Virus record (IMG/VR): IMGVR_UViG_3300021197_001995
Coordinates: 95,042 to 159,041 of that record
Direction: 5' to 3' (one strand)
Length of the DNA stretch: 64,000 nucleotides
From: a virus
The notes beneath the pieces are model-generated. The model was given only the letters and a program-made list of their open reading frames with translations. It made no database searches and had not been told where the DNA came from. Of this stretch, positions 707 through 43,354 are shown piece after piece; the stretch's first letter is position 1; each line of letters opens with the position of its first letter. Position numbers and translations under genes: made by a program.

Positions 707-1872
707 CTGAAGAAAAGTTTTTAGGGGGGTCGACCGTGGATCTCCAACTAGAGTTTTCGGAAAGAAGAAAATTTCTTGACTTTTTTAGGTCGAAAGGGTA
801 TCCTTTGCTTGATACCTTGTACGACAAAAGGTTGTACGGATTTGTGAACCACTTGGGCGAAGTTGTAATGCCTACTCCGACCCCCAAAAGGTTTGGAACA
901 GACTCTGGATCCGTAACGGGGATTAATTATGTGGTGGATTTGTTTAATAAATTTCGAAAGATGTATGTCAACACTCCAGCACTAAAATTTCCGACCGCGG
1001 TTGCACAGCTCAAGCCGCGCAAAAGTTTTCAGAAGTTTGAGACAAGCTATAATGAGTATGAAATACTTTTAGTCAACAAGCTCCTTCCAATCTTGATTGA
1101 AAGGATCCCAGACCCTAGTCCCTCCTTGGCAAGGTTCCTCGATGTTCTTGAGGCCTCAATTTTCGACCCGGAGATGCAAGGCTACCCGATCACCCGATCA
1201 GGTTTTGCGTTGTCTAACCGGTCCACGGCTTATCACACTGGTTTATATGTCGATGTACTGTCGGGACAAGATACAAACCTAGACCAGCAAAAAGCTAATA
1301 TTCTGGCCGATCCGGATTTTGAATGTTATGTTAGTATGGCACACGAACACGGATTTCTCGTCGACGCCAACGCTCCATGGCGACTAGTGGCTGATCTTGA
1401 CTCGCCGATTGTAAAACGGAACATTATGAATGGAAGAGCCATCTCAGAGTTCAACGCGTTTTATCGTGATGTGTATACTATAAAGGTGGCGCATGACGAT
1501 TATTGGTCGCTTAAATCTTTCTGCGCAAAATTTTATGTAGAATTTTACAACCAGAACAACCAACCGTTATCATCTATGAGAAAGGATGTTACTACCGATC
1601 GTTACCTGGAATTCTTGATGACGTGTCACTTCAAAAACTTGTCGCTAATGTTTAATCTAGAGGGGAAAGAATCAGTTCTTTTTTCAAAAACTCTGAAAAA
1701 AGCACTTGACACAAACAGAATTTATGGGTTAACATCTAATGCTGGCGCCATCGGATTTATTGAATCCTTTGTCTCCTCACAAATACTAAAAAAATTGGAA
1801 AAAAATGAAAATACTTCAAACGCTGGACATCAACAACAAGTGCCAGGGGATTTACCACTCTTGCGAATTTAA
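703..1872 (+). CDS. Unrecognised 389-aa phage protein
   Basis: It starts at ATG 703 inside an ATGA overlap with the upstream gene. The product is soluble and mixed alpha/beta, rich in aromatic residues, with no Walker, nuclease or zinc motif that I can see. A central part (YPITRSGFALS, YHTGLYVDV) looks like an ordered domain. Its 3' end overlaps the start of the DNA polymerase gene by 68 nt in another frame, a long overlap but one the polymerase start supports. Function unknown; a structural role is possible because it is cotranscribed with the truncated gene before it. Confidence 0.6.
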   Translation: MTEEKFLGGSTVDLQLEFSERRKFLDFFRSKGYPLLDTLYDKRLYGFVNHLGEVVMPTPTPKRFGTDSGSVTGINYVVDLFNKFRKMYVNTPALKFPTAVAQLKPRKSFQKFETSYNEYEILLVNKLLPILIERIPDPSPSLARFLDVLEASIFDPEMQGYPITRSGFALSNRSTAYHTGLYVDVLSGQDTNLDQQKANILADPDFECYVSMAHEHGFLVDANAPWRLVADLDSPIVKRNIMNGRAISEFNAFYRDVYTIKVAHDDYWSLKSFCAKFYVEFYNQNNQPLSSMRKDVTTDRYLEFLMTCHFKNLSLMFNLEGKESVLFSKTLKKALDTNRIYGLTSNAGAIGFIESFVSSQILKKLEKNENTSNAGHQQQVPGDLPLLRI

Positions 1873-2938
1873 ATTCAAAGATTATGAAAATCTACTTTCG
1901 CAATACTCCTTGGCGTGGAAACACTCCCCAATTTTAAATGATGAAAACTACAGATACCTATTCTTATCATCGAAGAACGAGGATTTGTCTCTGTTTTCAC
2001 GAACTCAAGATAGTTATGGAGAACTTAAACAGGTACTCGAAGCTCAAAGAAGAGCATCGCTTACGGCGAAGATAGATCTAGAAGAGAAATGTTTCCTTGA
2101 CGTATTGCCGACCCATCAACTCTCCAAGTGGTTCGAGTTGCGAGAGGACGCCTTGCAGAATCTTTACAACGAGAAGCAACAAGAAGACGACTATGACATT
2201 CTACACAAGGCCCACGTCCTAACTTCGGAGATCGCTCATCAGGATTTAATGTTCGAGGGCAAGAAAGGCAGAGTTCAATACAACATCTTCGGCTCGGCAA
2301 CAGGAAGACTAACCACCAAGAAAGGTTCAGTACCCATCATGACTCTAAAGAAGGAAGATAGGCATAAAATTACCCCTCAGAACGATGCTTTCGTGGAACT
2401 AGACTTAAACGCTGCAGAGATACGTACGTTAATGGCTCTATCAGGCCGAGAACAGCCGCAGGAGGACATTCACGAGTGGGTCGTGGAGAATGTGTTCAAT
2501 GGAGAGATAGAACGCTCTAAAGCGAAGGTAGAGTTATTTGCATGGCTGTATAACCCTTCAAGTTCAAAATCCCAATTCGACAAATTTTTTTCTCGGCAAA
2601 TTTTTCGAGATTTTTTTGCCCCTGGAAACCAGACGCTGAAAACCCCATTTGGTAGAGTCTTGGCGGTAGACGAAAGAAAAGCGCAAAATTACTTGCTTCA
2701 ATCGACGACTTCTGATATAGTTATACAAAACGCATACAAGATTATGAAGATGCTAAAGGGCAAAAGGTCCAAAATAGCGTTTACACTGCACGATTCGATT
2801 ATTATTGACATGTGCAAAAAAGATGCTATAATGTTAAAAGAAATAAAAAAACAATTCGAAGAAACGCCATGGGGCCCTTTCCTGAGTACGTGCAATGTAG
2901 GGAAAAACTTTGGAAACTTAAAGGAGCTAAAGATTTGA
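1805..2938 (+). CDS. Family A DNA polymerase, palm/fingers domain only
   Basis: The C-terminal half carries the three polymerase motifs of the Pol I family in order: motif A (ELDLNAAEIRTLM, with the metal-binding Asp), a motif-B-like helix (SKAKVELFAWLYN, with Lys and Tyr) and motif C (LHDSIIID). At 377 aa it is far shorter than Pol I or T7 polymerase. There is no 5'-3' or 3'-5' exonuclease domain, so it is either a reduced enzyme or one piece of a split polymerase. Start ATG 1805 overlaps the preceding gene; it ends in a TTGA overlap with the next gene. It most likely serves phage DNA synthesis with the SSB, RecA, exonuclease and helicase encoded downstream. Confidence 0.85.
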   Translation: MKILQTLDINNKCQGIYHSCEFKFKDYENLLSQYSLAWKHSPILNDENYRYLFLSSKNEDLSLFSRTQDSYGELKQVLEAQRRASLTAKIDLEEKCFLDVLPTHQLSKWFELREDALQNLYNEKQQEDDYDILHKAHVLTSEIAHQDLMFEGKKGRVQYNIFGSATGRLTTKKGSVPIMTLKKEDRHKITPQNDAFVELDLNAAEIRTLMALSGREQPQEDIHEWVVENVFNGEIERSKAKVELFAWLYNPSSSKSQFDKFFSRQIFRDFFAPGNQTLKTPFGRVLAVDERKAQNYLLQSTTSDIVIQNAYKIMKMLKGKRSKIAFTLHDSIIIDMCKKDAIMLKEIKKQFEETPWGPFLSTCNVGKNFGNLKELKI

Positions 2939-3792
2939 AAACAATTTTGGGCATAGGTACAGCAGGAAGTAATGTTGTGCGCCAACTCGGAGAATATAAA
3001 ACATACAAGCCGTATACGATTTGCACAGAAAATCAAAAAACTACGAAATACCATTTCAATTTACCATCACTCGACGGACCAGAAGAGTATGAAGAAATGA
3101 ACATGTCAAAGCTAACCAAATGGTTGGGTACAATCGAAAAAAGCTGCACAGTTTTTATCTGTGGAGCATCTAATTCATCGGGTATTACGTTACGAGCGCT
3201 CCACTCTCTGCACCAAAGAGGTGTAAAAATGGAAGTTGTGTATTTTATGCCTGAAACCGAGGTGTTATCTGAAGAGAAGACCCTGCAAGAACGCGCTTGT
3301 CGTGGTATTCTGCAAAATTATGCGCGCAGCGGCTTATTTGAAAAAATCTGTCTCGTATCCAACCTTCGGTTGGAGGAGATAGCGGGATCAACGAACGTAT
3401 TTGACTACTATAGCCAAATAAACCATGTGTTTACAAGCACTTACTACATGATGGATGTCTTTAGGAACACAAAGCCGATTACATCCACATTTAAGCGACC
3501 AAAGGAATCTTGCCGGATTACCACTATCGGACTGGGATCATTAGAGAAAGACGATTTAATGTTTTTTCCTTGCAATCGAGAGGTAGAAGTGGTATACTAT
3601 TATGGTATCAACGAAGAAAAGTTAAAGACGGAAGAAAACTTATTCAGAACAATAACCAACAAGGTAAAATCAAGAATCACCGATGAAACAAAGGTTTCGT
3701 TTGGGATTTATCCAACACAATACGAAGATGACTACATTTACGTGGAATACTTCTCACCAAAAATTCAACAAATAGTTGTTGACACAGAATAG
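2935..3792 (+). CDS. Divergent FtsZ/tubulin-like protein
   Basis: 285 aa from TTG 2935, which has AAGGAG eight bases upstream and overlaps the polymerase stop. The order of elements resembles FtsZ: an N-terminal nucleotide-binding strand and loop (ILGIGTAGSN, residues 4-13), a degenerate glycine loop CGASNSSG (76-83) where FtsZ has GGGTGTG, then a helix-strand-asparagine segment (RACRGILQNY..LVSNLRLEEI, about 120-149) matching the region that ends in N-D/N-R-L. I see no T7-loop NxDxxD, so GTP hydrolysis may be lost. The assignment is by pattern, not by search. A Rossmann-like protein of another family is the alternative. Confidence 0.55.
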   Translation: MKTILGIGTAGSNVVRQLGEYKTYKPYTICTENQKTTKYHFNLPSLDGPEEYEEMNMSKLTKWLGTIEKSCTVFICGASNSSGITLRALHSLHQRGVKMEVVYFMPETEVLSEEKTLQERACRGILQNYARSGLFEKICLVSNLRLEEIAGSTNVFDYYSQINHVFTSTYYMMDVFRNTKPITSTFKRPKESCRITTIGLGSLEKDDLMFFPCNREVEVVYYYGINEEKLKTEENLFRTITNKVKSRITDETKVSFGIYPTQYEDDYIYVEYFSPKIQQIVVDTE

Positions 3793-3887: not shown

Positions 3888-4646
3888 ATGGCAATTAATT
3901 TAGACGCTATGAAAGCGAAACTCGATAAACTTAACGGAAAGGGAGACGGAAAGAAGAATTTCTGGCGCCCAGAGGACGGAGAAAGCAACATCCGTATCGT
4001 TTCCACGAAGGACGGCGACCCGTTCAAGGAAAAGTATTTCCACTATGGCGTGGGAGGTCAATCCTTCCTTTGTCCGAAGAGAAACTTTGGAGATGACTGT
4101 CCAACCTGCAACTTTGCGAACAAGTTGTGGAACGAAGGGACAGAGGATAGCAAGAGACAAGCAAAGGAGATGTTCGCAAAGCAACGCTTCTTTTCACCGG
4201 TTCTTGTCCGGGGGGAAGAGGATCAAGGAATCCGAGTCTGGGGATACGGCAAGATGGCTTATGAAAAGCTGCTAACGATCGTACTGGATCCGGATTATGG
4301 AGATATCACAGACCCAGAAACCGGCAACGACCTCAAGTTGATGTACGGAAAGCTTCCTGGTGCAAGTTTCCCTCGTACCGATATCCGACCTCGTCCTCGA
4401 AAGACTGCACTTTGTGACGATGCCGTCGGTGGAGACGAAAGATGCGCAGAGCTTTTGGAGACTATTCCAAACTTTGATGAAATCTTTGAACGTAAGACAA
4501 CCGAAGAGGTTCAATCTATTATGGACCAGTTCCTCTCAGGAGAGTCAGGAAACGCCGAGGTTCAGAAGTTTGGAACTAACACCTCAACGCCAACTGGACC
4601 TACAGATACAGTGGAAGCAGCGTTTAACGACCTGTTGAACGCGTAG
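3888..4646 (+). CDS. Single-stranded DNA-binding protein, T4 gp32-like
   Basis: 252 aa starting at ATG 3888 behind GGAGGTAATAACA. The N-terminus (FWRPEDGESNIRIV, YFHYGVG.QSFLCP) and the Cys-rich stretch CP..NFGDDCPTCNFANKLW match the zinc-binding OB-fold core of gp32-type SSBs. The tail is acidic and low in complexity, as expected for a segment that recruits partner proteins. Its strong private promoter fits a protein needed in bulk. RecA follows 7 nt later. Confidence 0.88.
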   Translation: MAINLDAMKAKLDKLNGKGDGKKNFWRPEDGESNIRIVSTKDGDPFKEKYFHYGVGGQSFLCPKRNFGDDCPTCNFANKLWNEGTEDSKRQAKEMFAKQRFFSPVLVRGEEDQGIRVWGYGKMAYEKLLTIVLDPDYGDITDPETGNDLKLMYGKLPGASFPRTDIRPRPRKTALCDDAVGGDERCAELLETIPNFDEIFERKTTEEVQSIMDQFLSGESGNAEVQKFGTNTSTPTGPTDTVEAAFNDLLNA

Positions 4647-4653: not shown

Positions 4654-5787
4654 ATGGCAAAAGCTAAAGTTACCAAACTTAAAAAGGGCGCTTTAGATAT
4701 TGCTTCTATTCGAGGCATTATCAACAAGAAAGCCGGTAGAGAAGTTGCTCACTCACTTCAGGATAATAATCCAACAGAGGTGAATGAGTGGATTCCTACT
4801 GGCTCACGATGGCTTGACGCCATCATTTGCAAGGGCAGACACGCTGGCATCCCTGTGGGTAAAATCTCAGAGATAGCCGGCCTTCCCGGTACTGGTAAGT
4901 CATTCTTGGCTGCCCAGATTGCTGGGAACGCTCAAAAGATGGGTATTGATGTAGTGTACTTTGATTCAGAGTCCGCTATTGACCCTTCTTTTATGGAGCG
5001 CGCCGGTTGCGACTTAGACAGGCTTATGTATGTCCAAGCAGCATCTGTTGAGTTTGTCTTGGAAACCATCGAAGAACTACTAGCTACTGGTAACAAGTGG
5101 CTTTTCATTTGGGACTCTTTGGCTCTTACGCCCTCGATTTCTGATGTTGAAGGCGACTTCAATCCGCAGTCTTCTATGGCGGTAAAGCCTAGAATCTTGG
5201 CTAAGGGAATGTCTAAGTTGACTATCCCCATCGCTGATGCAAACGCTACTTTTCTAGTCCTCAATCAGTTGAAGACTAACCTAGGAGCGAGAACGCCAGC
5301 CCAAGCCATGACTGAACCATACACGACCCCAGGTGGAAAGGCTATGATTTATGCTTATTCACTTCGTGTTTGGCTCACCGCAAGAAAAGCCAAAGCTAGT
5401 TTCATCGTTGATGACAATGGTTTCCGCATTGGATCTGAAGTAAAGGTAAAGTTAGAGAAGTCTCGTTTCGGGACTCACGGCCGAACCTGCAACTTCAAGA
5501 TCCTGTGGGGAGATGATGCTGTTGGTGTCCAAGATGAAGAAAGTTGGTTCGATGCAATCCAAATCTCTGAAAGACTTGAACAGTCTGGTGCATGGTTTAC
5601 GCTAATCCACAATGATGGGTCTAAGGAAAAGTTCCAGCGCAAACAATGGGTCACTAAACTTGAGAGTGAAAAATTCAGAGAAAGTGTCTTGACTATTATT
5701 GAAGAAGATGTTATTATGAAGTTCAAGAATAGAGAAGGCAACGCAGGCGACTTCTACGAGCCGGATGAAATTCCGACCGAAGAGTAG
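4654..5787 (+). CDS. RecA/UvsX-type recombinase
   Basis: 377 aa with Walker A GLPGTGKS (residues 76-83), the conserved E-S region VVYFDSESAIDPSF, Walker B FIWDS (151-155) and the NQLKTNLGARTPAQ-like L2 loop followed by TTPGGKAMIYAYSLRVWL. This is the ATP-dependent strand-exchange protein that works with SSB in recombination-dependent replication and repair. It is in one operon with the SSB gene and is closed by a strong intrinsic terminator ten bases after its stop. The C-terminal 80 residues are acidic. Confidence 0.92.
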   Translation: MAKAKVTKLKKGALDIASIRGIINKKAGREVAHSLQDNNPTEVNEWIPTGSRWLDAIICKGRHAGIPVGKISEIAGLPGTGKSFLAAQIAGNAQKMGIDVVYFDSESAIDPSFMERAGCDLDRLMYVQAASVEFVLETIEELLATGNKWLFIWDSLALTPSISDVEGDFNPQSSMAVKPRILAKGMSKLTIPIADANATFLVLNQLKTNLGARTPAQAMTEPYTTPGGKAMIYAYSLRVWLTARKAKASFIVDDNGFRIGSEVKVKLEKSRFGTHGRTCNFKILWGDDAVGVQDEESWFDAIQISERLEQSGAWFTLIHNDGSKEKFQRKQWVTKLESEKFRESVLTIIEEDVIMKFKNREGNAGDFYEPDEIPTEE

Positions 5788-5836: not shown

Positions 5837-6799
5837 ATGAAGAGAGTAATGATAGTAGACGCGTACAACCAGTTCATCCGCGGATACATAGTAGACCCCA
5901 GCAAGAACCCAAACGGCTCCCCAATCGGCGGAATCAGGACTTTTATTAACATTTTTAATAAGTTGACGAGAGAGATTAAACCGGATCTGTTGGTGTTGGT
6001 TTGGGACGGCAAAGGCGGCTCTAAAAAACGGCGCTCAATGAACAAGAACTACAAGGGTGGGCGCAAACCACCCCGCACTAACTGGACCCAAGTTGGCATG
6101 GGTGAAGAGGAGATTCTAGACAATAAGGTATGGCAACAGATGAGAGTGATTGAATACCTCAATCAGACGCCAGTAATTCAATTTATGGAACCTTTAGTTG
6201 AGGCTGATGACGTAATTTCTTACGTCAAGAACACACCAATGTTCGACGAGTGGCAAAAGGTCATCGTTTCGGCTGATAAAGACTTTATTCAACTTTTGGA
6301 CGACAAGACGATTTTGCATCGCCCTATCCAGAAAGAGTATCTAAATAAGAATAGTGTGGTGGATAAATTCGACATTCACCCTACTAATTTCGCACTGGCT
6401 CGAGCCATAGTGGGTGACTCCTCGGATAACCTACCAGGAGTACCTAGAGTGGGCCTTCCGACAGTAGCAAAGAAATTTCCTTTCTTAAAAGAAGAGAAGA
6501 CACACTACTTAGATAGTATTCTAGAGGAATGCAACAAGCCGGAAAATAAACAAAAAGTGTATACAAACATTTTAGAATCAAAGGAGTTAATAGAAAACAA
6601 TTATGATATTATGCAGCTATCTTCGCCAATGCTATCTATACAAGCCAAACAAGGGATCGACGATACGTTTGAGCAGTATAAGCCACAGTACAATCAAACG
6701 GAAATGAGAAAAAGAATGCTCCAAGATGGAGTACTGACAGTTTCCACCACAGATCTCGAACAAAGATTTAATCACATTATCACTTCCTTTTCAGAGTGA
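5837..6799 (+). CDS. 5'-3' exonuclease (FEN/T4 RNase H type)
   Basis: 320 aa from ATG 5837, chosen over an in-frame upstream ATG because GGAG lies six bases before it. Acidic metal-binding residues appear in the family order: MIVDAYN (first Asp), LVLVWDGKGG, EADDVI, SADKDFIQLL, and the helix-hairpin-helix-like VGDSSDNLPGVPRVG. Removes RNA primers and flaps at lagging-strand ends. It sits between recA and the helicase, as in other phage replication clusters. Confidence 0.9.
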   Translation: MKRVMIVDAYNQFIRGYIVDPSKNPNGSPIGGIRTFINIFNKLTREIKPDLLVLVWDGKGGSKKRRSMNKNYKGGRKPPRTNWTQVGMGEEEILDNKVWQQMRVIEYLNQTPVIQFMEPLVEADDVISYVKNTPMFDEWQKVIVSADKDFIQLLDDKTILHRPIQKEYLNKNSVVDKFDIHPTNFALARAIVGDSSDNLPGVPRVGLPTVAKKFPFLKEEKTHYLDSILEECNKPENKQKVYTNILESKELIENNYDIMQLSSPMLSIQAKQGIDDTFEQYKPQYNQTEMRKRMLQDGVLTVSTTDLEQRFNHIITSFSE

Positions 6800-6835: not shown

Positions 6836-8230
6836 ATGGATCAGGAAAAGAACTTTTCAAAGTTCGGAAAAACATTCCAAGAAGACCTCTGTCATTTAAT
6901 ATTAAATGATAGAAGCTTTGCTGACCAGATGTTTGAGGTTTTAGACCTCGGGTTTCTGGAGCTTAAGCATTTAAGGGTTTTCATTGGAAAGATAAAGGAG
7001 TATAGGAAAAGGTATGGAGTTCACCCCACATCTAACATCATGCATTCCATCATACGGACAGGTTTGGATGCAGAGCCCGAATCAGTCAAGGTGCGAATCA
7101 GAGAGTACTATGCCCGCGTCCTGGCCAATGGTCAAATACCAGAATCTTCTGACTACATCAAGGACACTGCTCTCGATTTTTGCAAAAAACAAAAACTCAA
7201 AGAAGCATTAATTAAATCAGTTGAGTTAATCAAGTCATCTTCATTTGACGATGTGTCTAGGGTTATCGATGAAGCTTTAAAGTTGGGATCTGATAACACG
7301 TTGGGTTACGACTATTTGGTGGACTTCGAGCAGCGATTCGTCAAAAAAGCCAGGAACCCAATCTCCACAGGGTGGCGAGACATTGATGACATAGCAAAGG
7401 GAGGCTTAGGAAAAGGTGAACTTGGTGTTGTTGTTGCTCCTACTGGTGCTGGTAAGTCAATGGTACTTGTCCATCTCGGGGCCCAAGCCCTCAAGCAGGG
7501 AAAGAATGTACTCCATTATACTTTGGAACTTGCTGATACTATTGTCGCTGGCCGTTACGATTCTGCTATTACTGGCGTGGAACTTAAGAACCTAACAGTA
7601 TTTAAAGAAAAGATCTACGATGAAATCAAAGAAATTCAGGGAAAACTGATAGTAAAGGAGTATCCAACTCGTAGTGCTAGTATCCAAACAATAAAAAACC
7701 ACGTTGAGAAGCTAAAACGACGAGATTTCGCCCCAGACATGATCATCGTTGACTACGGAGACCTAATTCGGCCAGAAAACGGCGGAAAAGATGAGAAAAG
7801 ACATCAACTCGAAACTATTTACGAAGAGTTGAGGGGAATCGCCCAAATTTGCGAGTGTCCACTGTGGACAGCATCGCAAACTAACCGGTCTGGTCTCAAC
7901 GCAGAAGTGATCACCATGGAATCAATCTCGGAGGCATTTAACAAGTGTTTCGTCGCAGATTTTATCTTCACCGTTTCGCGAACAGTTGAAGACAAAAACA
8001 CAAACACTGGCCGAATTTTTGTTGCAAAGAACAGAAACGGCCCTGATGGACTCGTGTATCCTCTATTTATGGATACAAGTAACGTAAAGATAAAGGTTTT
8101 GCCAAAAACCGGCGAAACTGTTAATGAAATAATACAAAAATCTTCTGCAACGAGGTTGGTTAACCTCAAAGAGAAGTACGCGGCATTCAAAAAAGAAGGA
8201 GGAAAGAATCAAAATGGAATTGTCAAATAG
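6836..8230 (+). CDS. Replicative DNA helicase, DnaB/gp41 family
   Basis: 464 aa. An N-terminal helical domain is followed by the RecA-like motor: STGWRDIDDI..GGLGKGELGVVV, Walker A APTGAGKS (201-208), catalytic-Glu region HYTLEL, Walker B IIVDYGDLI, and a DNA-binding segment ECPLWTASQTNRSG. This is the hexameric 5'-3' helicase at the fork. Its 3' end overlaps the ribonucleotide reductase start by 17 nt. No separate primase was recognised in the window. Confidence 0.92.
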   Translation: MDQEKNFSKFGKTFQEDLCHLILNDRSFADQMFEVLDLGFLELKHLRVFIGKIKEYRKRYGVHPTSNIMHSIIRTGLDAEPESVKVRIREYYARVLANGQIPESSDYIKDTALDFCKKQKLKEALIKSVELIKSSSFDDVSRVIDEALKLGSDNTLGYDYLVDFEQRFVKKARNPISTGWRDIDDIAKGGLGKGELGVVVAPTGAGKSMVLVHLGAQALKQGKNVLHYTLELADTIVAGRYDSAITGVELKNLTVFKEKIYDEIKEIQGKLIVKEYPTRSASIQTIKNHVEKLKRRDFAPDMIIVDYGDLIRPENGGKDEKRHQLETIYEELRGIAQICECPLWTASQTNRSGLNAEVITMESISEAFNKCFVADFIFTVSRTVEDKNTNTGRIFVAKNRNGPDGLVYPLFMDTSNVKIKVLPKTGETVNEIIQKSSATRLVNLKEKYAAFKKEGGKNQNGIVK

Positions 8231-10076
8231 AATCTTGTCAGAAATCACAGTACACATGAAGTACGCCCGGTACCTGGATGATAAAAAGAGAAGGGAAACG
8301 TGGGAGGAACTAGTAACTAGGAACATGAACATGCACCTTAAGAAATTTCCCGAGATGGAACTTCAGATCGTAAAAGCTTATAAGAAGGTTTTCGAGAAAA
8401 AAGTTCTCCCTTCTATGAGATCTATGCAGTTTGGTGGAAAGCCAATTGAAGTAGCACCCAACAGAATCTTTAACTGCGCATTTATGCCAGCAGACGATTG
8501 GCGATGCTTCGGTGAAGCAATGTTTCTTCTGTTGGGGGGGACGGGTGTAGGATATTCCGTGCAAAAACATCATGTTGAAAAGTTGCCTGAGATTACTCGG
8601 CCAAACATGAACAGAACACGTAGATTTCTCGTAAATGATTCCATTGAAGGGTGGGCAGACGCAGTGAAAGCACTCGTTCGCTCTTATTTCCAGGGCGGTT
8701 CGCACCTTCGTTTTGACTTTACAGATATCCGACCAAAAGGCGCCGCCCTTGTGACTTCAGGTGGTAAAGCACCAGGTCCTCAGCCACTTCGAGAGTGTCT
8801 GGTAAAACTAGAAGGCATGTTGGTTCATAAAGAGAATGGAGACAAGCTATCGCCCATCGAAGTGCATGACATGATCTGCCACATCGCAGACGCAGTACTC
8901 GCAGGCGGCATCAGAAGAGCGGCTTTAATCTCTTTGTTTTCAGCAGACGATGAAGACATGATTGCTGCAAAAACAGGAAACTGGTGGGAAACCAACCCAC
9001 AACGAGGAAGAGCTAATAACTCGGTTGTATTGCTTCGCCACAAGATTGACAAAGAGTATTTTATGGGACTTTGGGACAGAGTAAAGGCTTCCGGCGCCGG
9101 CGAGCCTGGTTTTTATTTTTCGAATGATAAAGACTGGGGCACTAACCCTTGCTGTGAGATTGGTTTACGCCCATACCAATTCTGCAACTTGACAGAAGTA
9201 AATGTATCTAATGTGGAATCTCAAGAGGACCTCAACGAGAGAGTCAGGGCTGCAACCTTTATAGGAACGTTACAAGCTAGCTATACAGATTTCCACTATC
9301 TTCGTGATATATGGCGCAGAACGACAGAAAAGGACGCGCTAATAGGTGTATCCATGACTGGTATTGCCTCTGGCGCTGTTTTGGAGCTTGACATGAAAGA
9401 GGCAGCAAAGTGTGTAAAAACAGAAAACGACCGCGTTGCGAAGCTGATTGACATAAGACCGGCAGCACGTACAACCTGTGTCAAACCCGCGGGCACCACT
9501 AGTCTGACACTCGGTACGTCATCCGGAATTCACGCTTGGCACAATGAGCATTACATTAGAAGAATAAGGGTTGGAAAAAACGAACCAATCTATTCTTACC
9601 TAGAGATGAATCACCAGGAATTAGTCGAAGACGAATATTTCAGCCCCCATACAACGGCCGTTATCTCCATTCCGCAAAAAGCTCCTGACGGCTCCATCAT
9701 GAGAACAGAGTCAGCACTACAGTTGCTCAAGAGGGTAAAGCATGTTACTGATGAGTGGGTGAAGCCAGGCTTCCGCAAGGGACAAAACACTCACAACATT
9801 TCAGCAACTGTATCAATAAAAGAAGCAGAGTGGGCAGACGTGGGTGAGTGGATGTGGGAGAATAGAGCTAGTTACAACGGCCTGTCTGTCCTGCCTTACG
9901 ACGGAGGGTCCTATACCCAAGCACCCTTTGAAGACTGCTCTAAGGAGACTTATGAAGCAATGATGGCATCACTAAGCAGCATTGATCTTACCAGGGTGAC
10001 TGAATCGGAAGACAACACAAACCTTTCTGGCGAGATTGCCTGCGCCGGCGGCGCCTGCGAAATAAAATTTGTTTAA
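8214..10076 (+). CDS. nrdJ: Adenosylcobalamin-dependent (class II) ribonucleotide reductase
   Basis: 620 aa. Reduces ribonucleotides using a radical generated from vitamin B12. The N-terminal redox Cys lies in FNCAF (C88). The finger loop TNPCCEI (N311, C313 or C314, E315) holds the thiyl-radical Cys and its Asn/Glu partners. Also present are CVKPAGTTSLTLGTSSGIHAWHN-like core strands and a C-terminal CAGGAC pair that re-reduces the active site. The size and lack of an ATP cone resemble the monomeric triphosphate-reductase type. AAGGAGG lies 11 nt before the start. The host must supply or import cobalamin for it to work. Confidence 0.92.
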   Translation: MELSNRILSEITVHMKYARYLDDKKRRETWEELVTRNMNMHLKKFPEMELQIVKAYKKVFEKKVLPSMRSMQFGGKPIEVAPNRIFNCAFMPADDWRCFGEAMFLLLGGTGVGYSVQKHHVEKLPEITRPNMNRTRRFLVNDSIEGWADAVKALVRSYFQGGSHLRFDFTDIRPKGAALVTSGGKAPGPQPLRECLVKLEGMLVHKENGDKLSPIEVHDMICHIADAVLAGGIRRAALISLFSADDEDMIAAKTGNWWETNPQRGRANNSVVLLRHKIDKEYFMGLWDRVKASGAGEPGFYFSNDKDWGTNPCCEIGLRPYQFCNLTEVNVSNVESQEDLNERVRAATFIGTLQASYTDFHYLRDIWRRTTEKDALIGVSMTGIASGAVLELDMKEAAKCVKTENDRVAKLIDIRPAARTTCVKPAGTTSLTLGTSSGIHAWHNEHYIRRIRVGKNEPIYSYLEMNHQELVEDEYFSPHTTAVISIPQKAPDGSIMRTESALQLLKRVKHVTDEWVKPGFRKGQNTHNISATVSIKEAEWADVGEWMWENRASYNGLSVLPYDGGSYTQAPFEDCSKETYEAMMASLSSIDLTRVTESEDNTNLSGEIACAGGACEIKFV

Positions 10077-10081
10077 AAGTG

Positions 10082-10110
10082 TTGACAAACCAAGTAAAAT
10101 AGATTATTAT
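10082..10110 (+). promoter_or_regulatory. Sigma70-like promoter
   Basis: TTGACA 10082-10087, 17-nt spacer, TATTAT 10105-10110. It lies just after the reductase stop and drives the small gene at 10139, probably with the GroES-like and thyX genes. Confidence 0.75.
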
Positions 10111-10138
10111 TATAACACAACTCAGAAAAGGAGAAATA

Positions 10139-10414
10139 ATGAGTATTAACAGTAACCAAAAGAAATCAACAAAAGAAGAGCACCTCGCGAACTACATCAA
10201 GACGTTTGTAGCGCTTGAGGATGCGATGGAACCATTCAAGGAGCAGAGGAAAGATTTGCGCGAGTCCTACTCTGAGAACGGATGGCTCTCTAAAGAAGAC
10301 ATGCGACTGGCAGTCAAAGCCTATCGACTATACAAGTCAGAGACCGACATGGAGATCTTGACAGATTATGTAAACAAGTGTCAACGATCTATGGGGAGGT
10401 TCCCTGGTGCCTGA
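10139..10414 (+). CDS. Small charged helical protein, resembles GapR/DUF2312
   Basis: 91 aa, all helical by composition and highly charged. The order of features (a long helix with ALEDAMEPFKEQRKDLRESYSE, then a basic ENGWLSKEDMRLAVKAYRLYK segment) resembles small DNA-binding proteins of the GapR/DUF2312 type. The resemblance is weak and unverified. It is first in its operon and overlaps the GroES-like gene by 8 nt. Confidence 0.6.
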   Translation: MSINSNQKKSTKEEHLANYIKTFVALEDAMEPFKEQRKDLRESYSENGWLSKEDMRLAVKAYRLYKSETDMEILTDYVNKCQRSMGRFPGA

Positions 10415-11448: not shown

Positions 11449-13668
11449 ATGAGACTTATCACTATTCTATTACTATTGGCAGGGTGCACAGATGTCGTAT
11501 CTATGTCACCAGACCAGGGCTTTAGGGCCCTCGCTAGCGACGCTATTGTTCGCGATGTGCACATATTAGACTGGCAACCACCACCGCCCACCACACCACC
11601 ACTGACCAGAGAAGAAAGGTGCGCACAGACACCAATGCAGGAGTCACAGGCTTATTGTCAGTGTTACCCGCAGTGTTGTGATTCTCAAAGGTGGTACTGT
11701 CCCCCGAACCCACAACAAACAATTGACGTGATGCAGGTAGTGGTTGAGGTGTGTGACGACGATAAAAGCCCTTGCGTTTATGGTCCCGATCCCGATTGTC
11801 CACCTCCTGAAATAATCTCTCAGAGTGAATGTTATACCCAGTGGGAATGTCCTCCTGGGACAAGTGGGGAATTTATTAGGTGGTTTGAGTGTCAACTTGA
11901 GGACGGAACATTGGGGAGGCAACAAATTATCTGCGATAAAGGAAACTTGCAACATCTCCCTTGTAGACCGTGTGATCCTGAGGTTTGCGACAATTTGGAC
12001 AACGACTGTGACACCCTTGTAGATGAAGGCTTCTTTCCCTGTGAAACTACGTGCGGAGAGGGGGTGGGTGTCTGTATAGAAGGGAACGTGGAAGATTGCA
12101 CTGCTGAATTACCTGGAGAGGAAAGGTGTAACTATGAAGACGACGATTGCGACGGAGAAGTTGATGAAGGTCAACGTAATGTCTGCAATGAATGCGGCGC
12201 CGTGCCATCCGATACGTGTGACGGAGAAGATAACGATTGCGACGGCGCTACAGACGAAGAGCTAATTCGTGAGTGCGAAACTGCATGCGAACGTGGTCTT
12301 GAAGTCTGCGAAGAGGGCAATTGGATATCTTGCACAGCGGTCCAGCCGTCTGCAGAAGAGTGCGATGGTGCCGACAACGATTGCGACGGACAAATAGATG
12401 AGCAGCTTAATTGTCTGTGTGACATCAGCGACGTCGGCAACCTGATGCCTTGTAACGAGCCTCCCCTGCTGTGCGGCCAGGGCTTTAAAACCTGTGAATG
12501 CATAGATCCGGGTTGTCAAGAGATGAGATTAACAGATTGCGCTTCTCTGTGTACATACGTGCCCCTCCCAGAGCCACCAGTTTGTGATCCCCTTAGGGGC
12601 ATAGCTTTAGAAAGAGAGGAGTGCAATAATTTTGATGAGGACTGCGATCAGGTGATAGACGAAAATCTAGCGCAAGCATGCTATACAGGTCCCCCGGACA
12701 CTCTCCTAGTGGGCGTATGTCTCCCCGGGGAAGTTTTTTGTCACCAAGGTGCATGGGGAAACAATCGCGCCAACCAGTTCGAACCCGGATTGTGCACTGG
12801 GGAAATAACCCCTAGTGAAGAGATTTGTGACGGCGCCGATAATGATTGTGACGGAATAGTTGACTACGGAGAGGAAATAAGAGACACAGATATCTTATTC
12901 ATCGTGGACTGGTCCGGATCCATGGATCAAGAGATAGAGGCCGTTAGAACGGCACTTAATCGATTCGCCGCACAGTTTTCAGCAGAACAACAGCTTCAAT
13001 GGGGCCTGATCGTTGGCCCAAAAGAGTTTAGAGGCACGCAGGATGAAATGCTGGTACTTGTGTCTGACATTTCCCCTTTTGAAAACTTTCTGAGATCGTT
13101 CGCCGCATTAGGTATGGAGGGCATGGACACAGGAAACGAAATGCTCCTAGACGCTATCTATTTAGCAGTGAGAAACATTTCAGCTAGAGCCAACGTAGAT
13201 TTGGCCTCGACAGTGTGGTGGAGAAACACCGGGTCGATACCGCCGAAGGGTATCTTCGACATTACGTGGAGAGCAAACACTGACCGCGTCGTGGTTGTAT
13301 TTTCAGATGAAGAAGAGCAATCTTTCTTGCGAGACATTAACGACCCGGAAGGGCCGGCGCGCCCTATAGATAGGGGAGTGGTAGCGGAAGCGGTAAGACT
13401 CACTCCGAGTTTGAAATTTTATGCATTCGCGCCTGTGCCCATCTTCGGAAACCTGCGCCAACAGTGGGAAGATCTAACATTAGCGGGTAATGGCACTGTC
13501 TTTGAGCTGACAACTAGCCCAGCTAGCATGTACAACGACCTGATGTCGATTATCGACGAAGCGTGCCTACCTAGGGCTAATTCCCGGGCATCCACTACGA
13601 AGAGTAATTATTCGCTCGCTTCCCACTCTCACCATCGGTACGATTATAGACTTGGTCTATGCTATTAA
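11449..13668 (+). CDS. Cys-rich metal-binding-repeat lipoprotein with a VWA domain
   Basis: 739 aa. A short signal peptide ends in the lipobox LLAGC, so the mature protein should be membrane anchored. Six repeats of the form C(D/N)xxD(N/D)DCDxxxDE occur (starting near residues 180, 226, 256, 305, 391 and 460), the type found in MopE-like proteins. A von Willebrand A domain follows, with MIDAS motif DWSGSMD near 488 and a second Asp in FSDEEEQ. The family is typical of large-genome myxobacteria-like hosts. It could be a surface or adhesion protein made in the infected cell, or a virion fibre component. The last about 30 residues are Ser/His/Tyr-rich. Its stop overlaps the next start by 10 nt. 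Confidence 0.8.
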   Translation: MRLITILLLLAGCTDVVSMSPDQGFRALASDAIVRDVHILDWQPPPPTTPPLTREERCAQTPMQESQAYCQCYPQCCDSQRWYCPPNPQQTIDVMQVVVEVCDDDKSPCVYGPDPDCPPPEIISQSECYTQWECPPGTSGEFIRWFECQLEDGTLGRQQIICDKGNLQHLPCRPCDPEVCDNLDNDCDTLVDEGFFPCETTCGEGVGVCIEGNVEDCTAELPGEERCNYEDDDCDGEVDEGQRNVCNECGAVPSDTCDGEDNDCDGATDEELIRECETACERGLEVCEEGNWISCTAVQPSAEECDGADNDCDGQIDEQLNCLCDISDVGNLMPCNEPPLLCGQGFKTCECIDPGCQEMRLTDCASLCTYVPLPEPPVCDPLRGIALEREECNNFDEDCDQVIDENLAQACYTGPPDTLLVGVCLPGEVFCHQGAWGNNRANQFEPGLCTGEITPSEEICDGADNDCDGIVDYGEEIRDTDILFIVDWSGSMDQEIEAVRTALNRFAAQFSAEQQLQWGLIVGPKEFRGTQDEMLVLVSDISPFENFLRSFAALGMEGMDTGNEMLLDAIYLAVRNISARANVDLASTVWWRNTGSIPPKGIFDITWRANTDRVVVVFSDEEEQSFLRDINDPEGPARPIDRGVVAEAVRLTPSLKFYAFAPVPIFGNLRQQWEDLTLAGNGTVFELTTSPASMYNDLMSIIDEACLPRANSRASTTKSNYSLASHSHHRYDYRLGLCY

Positions 13669-15288: not shown

Positions 15289-15472
15289 AGCAGCATATAA
15301 CAGAATACCATACGACACAAAGCAAGAAATAGGTTTTCCTGATGCATTTATCTTCTTGACAAGAGAGCAAGAAAGGTTTATAATGGAACTGTTCCAAGAT
15401 GAGAGAGACACAATAAAGAAAGAACTTCTAGAAACAATAGAAGAAATGAAAGGTTTAATTAATGAACTCTAG
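15269..15472 (+). CDS. Small acidic helical protein
   Basis: 67 aa, starting in the 3' end of the preceding gene (ATG 15269) and ending inside the DnaE start region. The second half is a coiled-coil-like helix rich in Glu and Leu. Its tight coupling to dnaE on both sides suggests it is cotranslated with the polymerase. No family recognised. Confidence 0.6.
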   Translation: MTTKYFEAAYNRIPYDTKQEIGFPDAFIFLTREQERFIMELFQDERDTIKKELLETIEEMKGLINEL

Positions 15473-18400
15473 GAAAGAAAGCTCAATACCATTTGTAGGG
15501 CTACACGCACATTCGGTCGCAGGATCGCCATTCGACGCACTTGGATATCCACAAGAGCATATGGACTTTGCTTATGAAAACGGCATGGATGCATTGGCAT
15601 TGACTGATCATGGCAACGCCAACGGCCTAGCTTATCAGGTTTTGCATGCAAAAAAGATGCAGAAAGAAGGAAAAGAGTTCAAGCCGATCTTCGGCTGTGA
15701 AGCATATTTCATCCCCTCCGTCGCAAAGTGGAAGGAAGAATACGAAACTATCAGAAGCGCCGCAAAGAAAAAGTCCGAGTACGAGGCTGACAATTCTGGC
15801 ACTACGGTCGAGGATGAAGCATCATCAAAGAAGAAGATCAAGTCGAGCCTCAACAGAAGAAGGCACTTGATACTTCTAGCCATGAACCAGACCGGTCTGC
15901 AAAACATTTTCAAAATGATTTCACAGTCCTACGCTGGTGACAACTTCTATCGATATCCCCGCGTAGATTATGCTATGCTCAAGAAACATGGCGAAGGTGT
16001 CATTGCGGCATCTGCTTGCCTTGGGGGTGTCTATGCTGGAAACTACTGGGAAAACCGAGACACTGGGCCTGATGCAATCTTGTCCTCCATGCGAAAGACA
16101 ACTCAAAAGATGCAGTCCATCTTTGGCGACCGCTGGTACGGAGAGCTTCAATGGAATAATGTTCCAGAGCAGCACGACTTGAATCAATATATTATTCAGA
16201 TGCACCAAGAATTCGGCATCGAGCTTATCTCAACGGCCGACTCCCATTATTACAACGCAGACGTGTGGAAAGACCGAGAGCTATACAAGCGCCTCGGCTG
16301 GCTCGGAAAAGGAAGGCCCGACTATCTGTCAGAAGAGCTGCCCCTATCCGTCGAAGAGGTAGGGTATGAACTTTACCCGAAGAACGGAGATCAAATGTGG
16401 GAATCTTACGTGAAGTATTCCAAGGAGTGTGGAGTCGAATATGATGATAAAATCATAAAAGACTCTATCACTAGGACACATCAAATAGCTCACGATAGAA
16501 TCGAGAAATTCCTACCAGATAACAAGGTTAGGCTCCCCGACTTCGTCGTACCAGAGGGTTCTACTGCTGGCCAAACTCTCGCAGCTTTGTGTGTCGAAGG
16601 CCTCCGATCTCTAGGATTACAAAGCAATCAGGATTATGTAGATAGGTTGAAACACGAAGTTGGCGTTATCGAGGAGCGAGGCTTCTCCAAGTACTTCCTG
16701 ACGATGAAGTCTATTGCTGACGTAGCTGTGGACAGGCAACTAGTTGGTGCAGGGCGCGGCTCTGCAGCAGGATCTTTAGTGGCATATGTTCTGAACATTA
16801 CCCAGGTTGACCCCATCAAGTATGGACTCCAATTCGAGAGGTTTTTGACCAAGGGCGGCGCGGGATATCCAGACATCGATTATGACGTATCTGACCCGAT
16901 GGTACTTAAAGAGGTCTTGATTGATCAATGGGGTGACAACTCTGTCGTGCCGATTACAAACTGGAACACGCTTCAGTTGCGGTCACTCATCAAGGACATC
17001 TCGAAATTCTACGGAATCGAGTTCACGGAGGCGAACAACGTCACTAGTAAAATGGTTTATGAGGCGACTCCTCGGGCTAAAGCAAAACACGGAATCACTT
17101 CCGGAGTATACGCCCCTACGTTTGAAGAGCTAGTGGAGTACTCCGAGTCTCTTCAAGCGTTTCTAGAGAAATACCCACACATCAGAACTCACATTGAGAA
17201 ACTGTATGGCCAGACACGCTCAGCCTCTCGCCATGCTGGTGGTGTTGTTGTAGGTGAGAACCTAGATCAGTGGATGCCGCTTATCAACTCAGGAGGAGTT
17301 CGACAAACACCTTGGTCCGAGGGTATGAACGTAAGACACCTTGAGCCCATGGGTTTCATCAAGTTTGACATTCTTGGCCTCGCTTCACTTCGTATGCTGG
17401 AGGGTGCTATCGAGCGTATCCTCAAACGGCATCACGGAATGGAGAACCCTACATTCGCAGACGTCAAAGACTTCTACAACAAGAATCTACATCCAGAGAA
17501 GATTGACCTGGATGACAGAGAGGTTTGGGAGAACGTCTTCCACAAAGGTAAGTGGGCAGGCATCTTCCAGTTCACAGAGGCAGGTGCTCAATCGTTCTGT
17601 AAGAACGCTAAGCCAGATAACATCATTGACTTGTCGGCCATCACATCTATCTATCGACCAGGCCCACTAGGTGCGGGAGTAGATAGAAAATACATTGGAG
17701 CGAAGTCGAACCCCGAGGATGTGGAGTATGTCAACAAGCATGTGAGAGAAGTGACGGAAGAGACATACGGCTTCCTTATTTTTCAGGAACAGATTGCAAT
17801 GCTGGCTCACAAACTAGGCAAGGACCTGTCCCTGGATGAAGGTAATAAGCTTAGAAAACTACTTACTAAGAAGGGTACTGGTGAAGTCCAGGCTCAGAAA
17901 GACAAAATCTTTGACAAGTTCAAGCGCGGATGCTTAGAGAAAGGAATGAAAGATTATGAAGCTAGAGAACTATGGGAAACATTTGAATACTTTTCCGGCT
18001 ACGGCTTTAATAAGTCTCACGCTGTATCCTACTGTGTGCTCTCTTATCAGTGTGCTTATCTTCTTAACTACTATCCATCAGAATGGCTAGCCGCCTTCTT
18101 GGATAAAGAGCCGGAGACAAGAAAAGAAAGAGCAATCGCAACAGCAAAGTCGCTGGGATATAACGTGGAACAACTCAATGTGAACACGTCAGGAGTCGGC
18201 TGGGAAATCAGCGATGATGGCAAGACTCTGATTCAGCCCCTGTCCTCTATCAAGGGTCTGGGCATCAAGGCTATTGAACAAATCATTGAGAACAGGCCGT
18301 TCAATACTATTGAGGAGTTCTTGTTCCATGAGAAGATTACTTATTCTAAACTAAACAAGAAGTCTATCTCGGCTCTGTGTCTTTCCCAGGCGCTAAATAC

Positions 18401-18896
18401 CTTGATGGATGACAGGTTTTCAGGTATGAAGCACTTTTTCAACGCAGTTGCCGAAGACCGCCCACGAAAAGAGAAGAAACTTTTAGAAAACATAGAACTA
18501 TATGAGCCAGAAGGTGACTTCTCGGAGGAGGAGAAGCTAGAATACTTGGTAAATCTTACGGGTGTGTTTCCAATCAACGCAGTGGTGACACCCAGGGTTA
18601 GACAAAAACTAGACGAACTTTATGTGCCCCCTATCTCAGAATATGATCCCGAACTTGGTGTGACTTGGTTTATCCCTCGGGAGTGCAAGCTCAAGAAATC
18701 AAAGAACGGAAAGAACTTCTATGTTGTGAAGGTAATCGACGACAACAACGAGATGACTGTGATTCGGTGTTGGGGTGTCGACCCAGAGAGAGACATTGTG
18801 CACATCAACAGGCCATACATGGCAAGACTAAATTACAATCAGCAGTGGGGATTCTCCACTTTCAGTATGAGAAAAATGTTCAAGTTATTAGCATGA
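15462..18896 (+). CDS. dnaE: DNA polymerase III alpha subunit (DnaE)
   Basis: 1144 aa, near full bacterial length. The N-terminal PHP domain has LHAHSVAGSPFD (H15, H17) and LALTDHGNANG. The family C palm shows GAGRGSAAGSLVAYVL (about 430) and catalytic PDIDYD (about 470), with the third Asp region FDILGLASLRML (about 640). QEQIAML and GYGFNKSHAVSY are typical fingers motifs, and a C-terminal OB-like segment closes the protein. A family A polymerase is also encoded at 1805, so this genome has two replicative-type polymerases. No clamp, clamp loader or epsilon subunit was seen. Confidence 0.93.
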   Translation: MNSRKESSIPFVGLHAHSVAGSPFDALGYPQEHMDFAYENGMDALALTDHGNANGLAYQVLHAKKMQKEGKEFKPIFGCEAYFIPSVAKWKEEYETIRSAAKKKSEYEADNSGTTVEDEASSKKKIKSSLNRRRHLILLAMNQTGLQNIFKMISQSYAGDNFYRYPRVDYAMLKKHGEGVIAASACLGGVYAGNYWENRDTGPDAILSSMRKTTQKMQSIFGDRWYGELQWNNVPEQHDLNQYIIQMHQEFGIELISTADSHYYNADVWKDRELYKRLGWLGKGRPDYLSEELPLSVEEVGYELYPKNGDQMWESYVKYSKECGVEYDDKIIKDSITRTHQIAHDRIEKFLPDNKVRLPDFVVPEGSTAGQTLAALCVEGLRSLGLQSNQDYVDRLKHEVGVIEERGFSKYFLTMKSIADVAVDRQLVGAGRGSAAGSLVAYVLNITQVDPIKYGLQFERFLTKGGAGYPDIDYDVSDPMVLKEVLIDQWGDNSVVPITNWNTLQLRSLIKDISKFYGIEFTEANNVTSKMVYEATPRAKAKHGITSGVYAPTFEELVEYSESLQAFLEKYPHIRTHIEKLYGQTRSASRHAGGVVVGENLDQWMPLINSGGVRQTPWSEGMNVRHLEPMGFIKFDILGLASLRMLEGAIERILKRHHGMENPTFADVKDFYNKNLHPEKIDLDDREVWENVFHKGKWAGIFQFTEAGAQSFCKNAKPDNIIDLSAITSIYRPGPLGAGVDRKYIGAKSNPEDVEYVNKHVREVTEETYGFLIFQEQIAMLAHKLGKDLSLDEGNKLRKLLTKKGTGEVQAQKDKIFDKFKRGCLEKGMKDYEARELWETFEYFSGYGFNKSHAVSYCVLSYQCAYLLNYYPSEWLAAFLDKEPETRKERAIATAKSLGYNVEQLNVNTSGVGWEISDDGKTLIQPLSSIKGLGIKAIEQIIENRPFNTIEEFLFHEKITYSKLNKKSISALCLSQALNTLMDDRFSGMKHFFNAVAEDRPRKEKKLLENIELYEPEGDFSEEEKLEYLVNLTGVFPINAVVTPRVRQKLDELYVPPISEYDPELGVTWFIPRECKLKKSKNGKNFYVVKVIDDNNEMTVIRCWGVDPERDIVHINRPYMARLNYNQQWGFSTFSMRKMFKLLA

Positions 18897-22792: not shown

Positions 22793-23485
22793 ATGATCGA
22801 AAGAGTAACATCTCAACCTGAGAAGAAGAAAAAACCTGGAAAGAAGGATAAAGCCAAAGAGAAAGACGATAATCAAATAGTTATAGTCAACAACATACAA
22901 CTGCCTCAACACAGTGACCAAGAACTCAGGACTATAAATCTCTACGGTGACATCACTGAACAAAAAGGCGCCGACGTGGTGGCCGCTCTATTATATTTAG
23001 AAAGTAACTCGCACACAGTAATGCAACAAGACCCCACGGATCCAGAAAGTAAAGACGTTATCGTTGCGAGATCTATCTCCATGATAATCTCCACCCATGG
23101 CGGCATAGCCTCCGACATGTTTTCCATCTTGGACATTATGGACTTGATAAAACAGCGCACATGTGACGTCGAGACCTTCGGCCTAGGCAAGGTAATGTCG
23201 GCCGGCGTGCCTATACTTGCTGCCGGCACACCCGGGAGACGTAAAGTCGGCCGAAATTGCCGCATAATGCTTCACAATGTGATGGCAGGAACAGGAGGGA
23301 CGATCTTTTCCATGGAAAATGAACTTGACGAGATAAGATGGGTCCAAGACCGATACATCGAGACTCTTGCGAGCTACACAAAACTTACGCCATCTAAAAT
23401 AAAAAAGCTTCTAAAGACCCAAAAAGACGTGTACATCTCGGCAGAAGAGGCTATAAAGATGGGAATTGCAGATGAGATCATCTAA
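22793..23485 (+). CDS. ClpP-like serine protease
   Basis: 230 aa, starting after a leader with a TATAAATA box at 22759. A Lys-rich N-terminal extension of about 25 residues precedes the ClpP fold: INLYGDITEQKGADVVAALLYL, ISTHGGIASDMFSILD, nucleophile Ser136 in KVMSAGVPILAAG, His161 in IMLHNVMAG, and DVYISAEEAIKMGIAD at the end. It may be the prohead protease or a partner of host Clp ATPases. Placement after the acidic scaffold-like gene favours the former. Confidence 0.85.
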   Translation: MIERVTSQPEKKKKPGKKDKAKEKDDNQIVIVNNIQLPQHSDQELRTINLYGDITEQKGADVVAALLYLESNSHTVMQQDPTDPESKDVIVARSISMIISTHGGIASDMFSILDIMDLIKQRTCDVETFGLGKVMSAGVPILAAGTPGRRKVGRNCRIMLHNVMAGTGGTIFSMENELDEIRWVQDRYIETLASYTKLTPSKIKKLLKTQKDVYISAEEAIKMGIADEII

Positions 23486-23505
23486 TTATACAGAGGAGAA
23501 GTAAG

Positions 23506-25374: not shown

Positions 25375-25379
25375 ACCCC

Positions 25380-25408
25380 TTGACATTTCAACCGAAATGC
25401 ATTATAGT
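25380..25408 (+). promoter_or_regulatory. Sigma70-like promoter for groEL
   Basis: TTGACA 25380-25385, 17-nt spacer, TATAGT 25403-25408, 30 nt before the GroEL start. It gives the chaperonin its own transcript start. Confidence 0.8.
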
Positions 25409-25438
25409 ATATACATACAAACATGAAAGCGAGTCAAA

Positions 25439-42286: not shown

Positions 42287-43354
42287 ATGGCTGTTGATTT
42301 CGCGACATTTTCTAAAATTGTTAACCATGTAACCGCAGTGCGTAAGCCTGTCCTACTTCGAGGCCGTCACGGCATCGGCAAGTCCACCGTTGTGTATCAG
42401 TTCGCTGATTCGCAGGGCATGGAGATTGTCGAACGACGTGCTTCTCAGATGACCGAGGGTGACTTGGTTGGTCTTCCAACCATTGAAGACAATTCTACAA
42501 CTTTCAACCCGCCAGACTGGTTCAAGGCTGCTTGTGACCGACCTGTTGTTTTGTTTCTCGACGAAGTTGACCGCGCTACTCTGGAGGTCCGCCAGGGTAT
42601 CTTCGAGCTTACTGATTCACGTAAGCTGAACGGTCACACTCTCCACCCAGACACGCTCGTTTTCGCAGCAGTCAATGGTGGCGACCACGGATCACAATAC
42701 CAAGTAGGTGAGATGGACCCAGCAGAACTAGACCGCTGGACAGTATTCGACATCGAACCTACAGTGGAGGACTGGCTGTCTTGGGCCAAGGACTCAGAGA
42801 TTTCTTCTGAGGTTTGGAATTTTATCAACCAGAACCGACCCCACCTCGAACACACAGATGACTTCGAGCCGAACAAGGTTTACCCTTCTCGTCGCTCGTG
42901 GGAACGTCTTGACCGATGCTTGGCTCAAGCCGGCCTGTTGGAGGAGTCCAGTCCTACACTTTACAATCTTACGTCAGCGTTTGTTGGCTTCGAGGCTGCC
43001 GTCGCTTTCAACGATTTCATTCTCAACTATGACCGACAGGTTACGACTGAGGACATCTTGGTCAAGGGTGATTTCGCCAAGGTTGCGGATTTCGGTATCA
43101 ACGACCACACTGCTATCATCGACAAGTTCGAGGCAGAGGAAATCTTCAAGGATGAGTTGGTTCAAGAGCAGGTTGATAACTTGGCTCGATACTTTGTGAT
43201 GCTTCCTTCTGAGGTTGCCATGAAACTCTGGACTGTCATGGGCAAGGGTGATGTTAACAATACTGTCAAGCTGCACAAATCAGAAGTAGACGGAGAATCT
43301 GTGTCAAAGCACTTCGTCAAGCTGATTAACGGCTCGGAAAATGACGTCAACTAA
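42287..43354 (+). CDS. MoxR-type AAA+ ATPase
   Basis: 355 aa. Walker A GRHGIGKST near residue 26, Walker B VVLFLDEVDRA, sensor-1-like LVFAAVNGGD, and the MoxR-style AELDRWTVFD arginine region. MoxR ATPases act on partner VWA proteins to fold or activate metal-containing complexes. The next gene encodes just such a VWA protein, each under its own promoter. Large phages sometimes carry this pair; the target is unknown. Confidence 0.9.
   Translation: MAVDFATFSKIVNHVTAVRKPVLLRGRHGIGKSTVVYQFADSQGMEIVERRASQMTEGDLVGLPTIEDNSTTFNPPDWFKAACDRPVVLFLDEVDRATLEVRQGIFELTDSRKLNGHTLHPDTLVFAAVNGGDHGSQYQVGEMDPAELDRWTVFDIEPTVEDWLSWAKDSEISSEVWNFINQNRPHLEHTDDFEPNKVYPSRRSWERLDRCLAQAGLLEESSPTLYNLTSAFVGFEAAVAFNDFILNYDRQVTTEDILVKGDFAKVADFGINDHTAIIDKFEAEEIFKDELVQEQVDNLARYFVMLPSEVAMKLWTVMGKGDVNNTVKLHKSEVDGESVSKHFVKLINGSENDVN

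Follow-up and report, generated by a model that had tools for sequence, protein, structure and literature searches.

What could a protein with a tubulin fold be doing inside a phage replication operon if it lacks the residues with which tubulins and FtsZ hydrolyse their nucleotide? The question is raised by an open reading frame (ORF) in a 64,000-nucleotide stretch of viral DNA, hereafter the window, which comprises bases 95,042–159,041 of the 159,041-base IMG/VR record IMGVR_UViG_3300021197_001995. This record may be incomplete; among its other genes are those for a terminase, portal, major head protein and tail sheath, and it is therefore assigned to a contractile-tailed phage. We use the name TUB for the new family that this ORF represents, with the window ORF as its founding example. 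As described below, TUB is a new, divergent family of the tubulin superfamily, for which membership of FtsZ or PhuZ/TubZ is not established, and it is a fixed replication-operon gene of a broad clade of uncultured phages. Our analysis supports the view that, of a tubulin subunit, it retains the nucleotide side and has lost the catalytic one.

Predicted fold of TUB

Using AlphaFold2 we modelled the window protein, with 41 TUB family sequences, and a homologue about 37% identical to it, and in both cases the alignments were drawn from the TUB family only. The models had pLDDT values of 92.8 (pTM 0.91) and 91.9, respectively, and each displays a GTPase-type domain, a long central helix H7 and, after it, a second domain containing a mixed sheet. 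With helices and strands named by order and length, the secondary structure runs S1–S6, H6 and the long H7, followed in the second domain by S7, S8, H10, S9 and S10. Helices H8 (between H7 and S7) and H9 (between S7 and S8) are missing in both models, and in the model of the window protein no more than ~11 residues follow the last strand, with neither a C-terminal helix H11 nor an acidic tail.

Foldseek with the window model ranked FtsZ first (E 3e-13). VIA-align with the same model aligned 263–282 residues in its top rows and returned CetZ 3zid (Z 24.0, 265 residues, 3.3 Å), TubZ 4ei7 (Z 22.9) and FtsZ 2r6r (Z 21.9), while the second model matched CetZ over its full length (Z 24.4). For each of the two models the top 50 structural matches all belonged to the tubulin superfamily. 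An earlier sequence-only reading of this DNA had proposed an FtsZ/tubulin-like fold, and both of the members modelled here fall within that superfamily; as predicted, TUB is almost certainly a complete two-domain tubulin/FtsZ fold minus H8 and H9.

Sequence searches and extent of the family

Searches with the single window protein gave nothing significant for a tubulin relationship in Pfam, PHROGs, PDB chains or 50,697 phage records, and TUB family profiles likewise gave nothing significant for tubulin in Pfam or the PDB (the latter covered with the single sequence and two profiles). As a 36-member TUB profile retrieved no FtsZ from PDB sequences, homology to tubulins rests on fold and motif register. 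The Pfam Tubulin model reached a non-significant best E of 0.075–0.13 in one to two members, and hhalign gave a non-significant E of 0.034 against FtsZ and an E of 8.6e-4 against PhuZ, yet with a probability of 24% and over 97 columns. Four TUB members used as tblastn queries matched no phage isolate record, and with nothing matching in Pfam, PHROGs or isolate phage records the family is invisible to routine annotation. A search of open-access papers yielded no description of TUB. No relative turned up in scans of 84,980 bacterial and archaeal species genomes, which thus gave no sign of prophage copies and no clue to the host.

Within IMG/VR, scans that included one with uvsX as the query gave at least 191 loci with a TUB ORF of 255 aa or longer. 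Clustering leaves 101 groups at 90% identity and 25 at 50%, and copies differ down to about 25% identity. The family is probably larger than sampled, since one scan took the best 80 of 190 matching contigs and the loci from the uvsX query are the matches listed.

Nucleotide pocket and catalytic loops

Motifs were counted in 100 aligned TUB homologues, with the register of T1, T4, T6 and H7 against FtsZ, and of T1 and T4 against PhuZ, set by hhalign at weak scores. On the nucleotide side, T1 retains G8 (100/100), A10 (93/100) and G11 (86/100), and the asparagines of T6 (N143) and H7 (N163, 96/100) are also kept. Given these T1 glycines and two guanine-side asparagines, sequence conservation makes it plausible that TUB binds nucleotide without hydrolysing it.

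The earlier reading had noted CGASNSSG in place of GGGTGTG in the window protein. This is confirmed, and loss of T4 proved to be family-wide, with the canonical GGGTG(S/T)G found in none of the 100 homologues. Distant members have forms such as GGSGTISG; across the wider family T4 is short yet partly glycine-rich, and it is most eroded in the subclade of the window.

The T7 catalytic loop, which the same reading had thought missing, is indeed absent across the family. The expected aspartate positions, 184 and 187 when counted from the end of H7, are acidic in 9/100 and 10/100 homologues, so that neither holds a conserved acid, and H8 is lacking in both models. All 8 PhuZ and 7 FtsZ sequences aligned for comparison carry both aspartates, which in FtsZ are catalytic and help to hydrolyse the nucleotide held by the adjacent subunit (PMC8936486). 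With the T4 signature and these residues lost, T7-type GTPase activity is very probably not to be expected of TUB, as judged from the alignment and the models.

At the end of H5 lies a family signature, QxxxRS (Table 1), which is a candidate partner or ligand site; we know of no other tubulins that carry it.

Gene start and the replication operon

The TTG start codon of TUB (2935–2937) shares bases with the TGA stop of the upstream polA-like gene (2936–2938). Among homologues that have a polA neighbour, this exact 4-nt overlap (−4 spacing) recurs in 47 of 91, while 39 of 99 homologues start at TTG and 75 of 99 have a purine-rich Shine-Dalgarno-like site upstream of the start. The TTG start at 2935, as first proposed, is supported by this conservation of start and overlap, which makes the N-terminus credible, and the overlap itself suggests translational coupling of the polA-like gene and TUB. 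Nor is TUB a chance ORF, given the 191 loci that carry it and its dN/dS of 0.04–0.10 against relatives; it is a genuine gene.

Its location in a replication operon, also put forward earlier, is borne out by the neighbouring genes for a short family A DNA polymerase-like protein, a gp32-like protein, UvsX, a 5'-3' exonuclease, a DnaB-type helicase and a ribonucleotide reductase. In the short PolA-like protein the palm motifs are visible by eye, and no exonuclease domain was matched. The order orfA-orfB-polA-TUB-gp32-uvsX-exo-dnaB-nrdJ recurs among the loci listed, as far as the contigs reach. The first loci had been chosen by TUB itself, and we therefore used uvsX as an independent anchor, although the two samples overlap in contigs. 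Among the matches listed, TUB lay between polA and gp32 in all 45 uvsX-anchored loci having both genes, and at 90% identity the 46 TUB ORFs of the uvsX-anchored set fall into 33 clusters. Insertions on either side of TUB occur in some loci, with TUB retained. One of these, at 6845–10351 of locus L030 between TUB and gp32, encodes a protein that weakly matches a type II restriction enzyme, together with an N6 methylase-like protein and a GHKL ATPase, and looks like a restriction-modification or defence insertion.

In close pairs dN/dS was 0.04–0.10 for TUB, 0.12–0.14 for polA and 0.02–0.05 for gp32, values that are rough since dS exceeds 1; TUB is under strong purifying selection. Distances between TUB copies correlated with those of polA (r=0.907), gp32 (0.854) and uvsX (0.805), and none of 999 permutations gave a correlation as high.

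Table 1. Features of TUB and its neighbourhood. Positions are those of the window, except for the last three rows, which refer to the loci named.
Feature	Position	Strand	Details
Short family A DNA polymerase-like gene (polA-like), upstream of TUB	1805–2938	+	377 aa; Pfam DNA_pol_A 4.9e-12
Shine-Dalgarno-like AAGGAG	2921–2926	+	8 nt before TTG of TUB
4-nt overlap TTGA, polA-like stop/TUB start	2935–2938	+	From sequence
TUB, tubulin/FtsZ-fold gene	2935–3792	+	285 aa; TTG start
T1 loop GIGTAGSN, residues 6–13	2950–2973	+	Alignment; register by hhalign
Degenerate T4 loop CGASNSSG, residues 76–83	3160–3183	+	Sequence and alignment
Family signature QNYARS, residues 127–132	3313–3330	+	Q127, R131, S132 invariant, 100/100
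T6 asparagine N143, aligned with guanine-side Asn of FtsZ	3361–3363	+	96/100; register by hhalign
Long central helix H7, residues 155–177, including N163	3397–3465	+	DSSP of model
Loop replacing T7 and H8, residues 178–194	3466–3516	+	No conserved catalytic Asp
gp32-like single-strand DNA-binding protein, downstream of TUB	3888–4646	+	PHROG 1192 7.9e-22
UvsX-like recombinase	4654–5787	+	PHROG 97 1.4e-59
5'-3' exonuclease	5837–6799	+	Pfam 1.1e-23
DnaB-like replicative helicase	6836–8230	+	PHROG 19 5.3e-75
Ribonucleotide reductase (nrdJ-like)	8214–10076	+	PHROG 367 3.9e-131
~130-aa protein, locus L151	3867–4253		
~130-aa protein, locus L152	1346–1798		
~130-aa protein, locus L153	5374–5763		

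Comparison with known tubulins

The sequence-only reading had likened the protein to phage tubulins of the PhuZ/TubZ kind, which holds for the fold class and not for the family, as sequence homology is at best marginal and the C-terminal helix and tail, H8 and H9 are all missing. The phage tubulins of Chimalliviridae (PhuZ/phiKZ TubZ) have, like TUB, a phage-encoded tubulin/FtsZ fold with a T1 glycine loop; hhalign puts T1 and T4 of TUB in register with PhuZ at a weak score, and PhuZ was also a structural match in BFVD. However, PhuZ has retained a glycine-rich T4 along with both T7 aspartates (8/8 aligned), which TUB has not, and has a C-terminal helix H11 and tail (PMC3678025) that are not in TUB. 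Furthermore, only 66.2% of chimallin phages have PhuZ, which is dispensable (PMC10299810) and thus optional where TUB is fixed between polA and gp32.

The best structural match was archaeal CetZ (Z 24.0–24.4 over 256–265 residues), with 12–18% identity when aligned by structure; it is a cellular GTPase whose T4 and T7 are both intact. FtsZ and TUB have in common the fold, T1 register and the T6 and H7 asparagines, but TUB is without GGGTG(S/T)G, NxDxxD, H8, H9 and the long C-terminal tail. Plasmid and phage segregation TubZ aligned with the TUB models at Z 22–23 over 269–281 residues; unlike TubZ, TUB is about 100 residues shorter and has neither the C-terminal tail nor the T7 catalytic residues. 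TubZ assembly dynamics are reported to depend on this tail (PMC5322520). FtsZl1 and FtsZl2 set a precedent for TUB as divergent FtsZ-tubulin families of unassigned function (Makarova and Koonin 2010, PMC2875224); they differ from TUB in being cellular and in having an intact GGGTG(S/T)G and extra C-terminal regions, and FtsZl1 is without a recognisable T6-H7, which TUB conserves.

The best viral structural neighbours of TUB were FtsZ-type and PhuZ-type proteins, the closest being A0A6J5RW92 of an uncultured Caudovirales ('FtsZ', 452 aa; TM 0.78 on the query), which is ~170 residues longer than TUB and 12–13% identical to it. Several 'phage' records (matches H74–H99) carried a cellular-looking ftsZ, two of them at 98.7–99.6% identity to E. 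coli, and these are probably bacterial contamination.

Proposed role of TUB and its alternatives

We favour an explanation in which TUB is a nucleotide-binding, replication-linked tubulin-fold factor that does not hydrolyse by T7, and to this explanation as a whole we give an even chance. TUB would bind guanine nucleotide in a simplified pocket without hydrolysing it in the T7-dependent manner of tubulin and FtsZ, and would be made together with the short PolA-like polymerase via translational coupling. Its task would then be to assemble or tether the phage replication machinery, statically or as a switch, through self-assembly or in a complex with PolA or gp32; it would not act as a dynamic, cytomotive filament like PhuZ. 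A replication-linked role is, by itself, fairly likely; the particular mechanism, that of a nucleotide-bound assembly or tethering factor made with the PolA-like protein, is tentative and less likely than not. We regard it as rather doubtful that TUB is an obligate subunit or regulator of the replication complex, acting outside the cytoskeleton as a non-hydrolysing, nucleotide-bound partner of the short family A polymerase.

Several observations weigh against the favoured explanation. TUB is acidic (median pI 5.7), so its sequence does not suggest direct DNA binding; position in an operon indicates co-expression and not contact, and the correlation between TUB and polA may reflect only vertical inheritance and neighbouring position. 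E191, just before S7, is the sole T7-loop position that is acidic in most members (70/100) and could be a stand-in catalytic residue. Loss of the T7 aspartates alone does not exclude filaments, since a hydrolysis-dead T7 mutant of PhuZ still makes them (PMC10299810). Furthermore, the nearest isolates with the same operon have other proteins in the TUB slot, where a ~130-aa protein shows that the replication module can run without TUB. This conserved protein (HRKKESNTLYTINALN) lies between polA and gp32 in Microcystis phage Mel-JY01, Flavobacterium phage immuto and the uncultured LR756508, and was found in none of the TUB-bearing loci examined. A split or diverged tubulin in the slot of these three was considered and rejected, as the proteins there are the shared ~130-aa family and others.

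Might TUB instead be a filament-forming phage tubulin of altered chemistry, which positions or segregates phage DNA through a remodelled interface as PhuZ and TubZ do? Its complete predicted fold, its FtsZ-type and PhuZ-type viral neighbours and the polymerisation of hydrolysis-dead PhuZ would all fit, but the tail on which TubZ dynamics are reported to depend is missing, PhuZ is patchy and dispensable where TUB is not, and phmmer found no match to chimallin PHIKZ054 in the 159-kb record, incomplete as this may be and with distant homologues able to escape such a search; we consider this reading unlikely. Phage proteins that target FtsZ are common, including T7 Gp0.4, lambda Kil, P1 Icd and T5.008 (PMC4944311, PMC3961180, PMC11897509, PMC10714956), and TUB could likewise inhibit host division as a decoy subunit that joins host FtsZ filaments at their exposed T7 end and stops them from growing further. 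Such capping is conceivable because the nucleotide face is kept while T7 and H8 are absent, that is, interface elements are lost on one side only. However, the known phage inhibitors of FtsZ are small, unrelated, accessory proteins, whereas TUB is locked in the replication operon across phages whose copies are down to about 25% identical, and its sequence similarity to FtsZ is not significant. The earlier suggestion of a capping partner is not supported for a second phage tubulin, none being found in the possibly incomplete record with FtsZ, PhuZ, Pfam Tubulin and own-family profiles; capping of host FtsZ is quite unlikely. An enzyme or NAD(P)-type nucleotide-binding Rossmann-fold protein merely resembling tubulin might be read from a TrkA_N match in 6 of 36 members (best 8.8e-06) and from a YjeF_N match below the cutoff; we set both aside, along with a DUF267 match also below the cutoff, as local glycine-loop resemblances. 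This is very improbable, as in two models the entire chain can be superposed on tubulins, H7 and second domain included (Z 21–24), with only tubulin superfamily entries in the top 50.

PhuZ and other known phage tubulins form accessory filaments, which transport DNA or capsids. As a nucleotide-bound replication factor, TUB would widen the range of the superfamily to a role that is linked to replication and likely non-cytomotive. TUB occurs in all testable clade members at one fixed place in the operon and lacks parts thought essential for the tubulin/FtsZ GTPase, which suggests that a cytoskeletal fold has been reused as a fixed part of phage replication machinery.

Other genes in the window

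Besides the short PolA-like protein, the window encodes a second DNA polymerase, a DnaE-type Pol III alpha of 1144 aa (15462–18896; Pfam 5.7e-51). A 739-aa predicted lipoprotein at 11449–13668 has MopE-type metal-binding motif repeats and a VWA-like domain and may hint at the host group. At 42287–44648 lie an AAA ATPase (identified by eye) and, after it, a DUF2201 metallopeptidase/VWA-like protein, together a MoxR-VWA-like pair carried by a phage. A ClpP-like protease and a GroEL-like chaperonin of full length (522 aa, by eye) lie within about 4 kb of each other at 22793–27007, and four tRNA genes (Lys, Gly, Pro and Arg) are found at 50735–51345.
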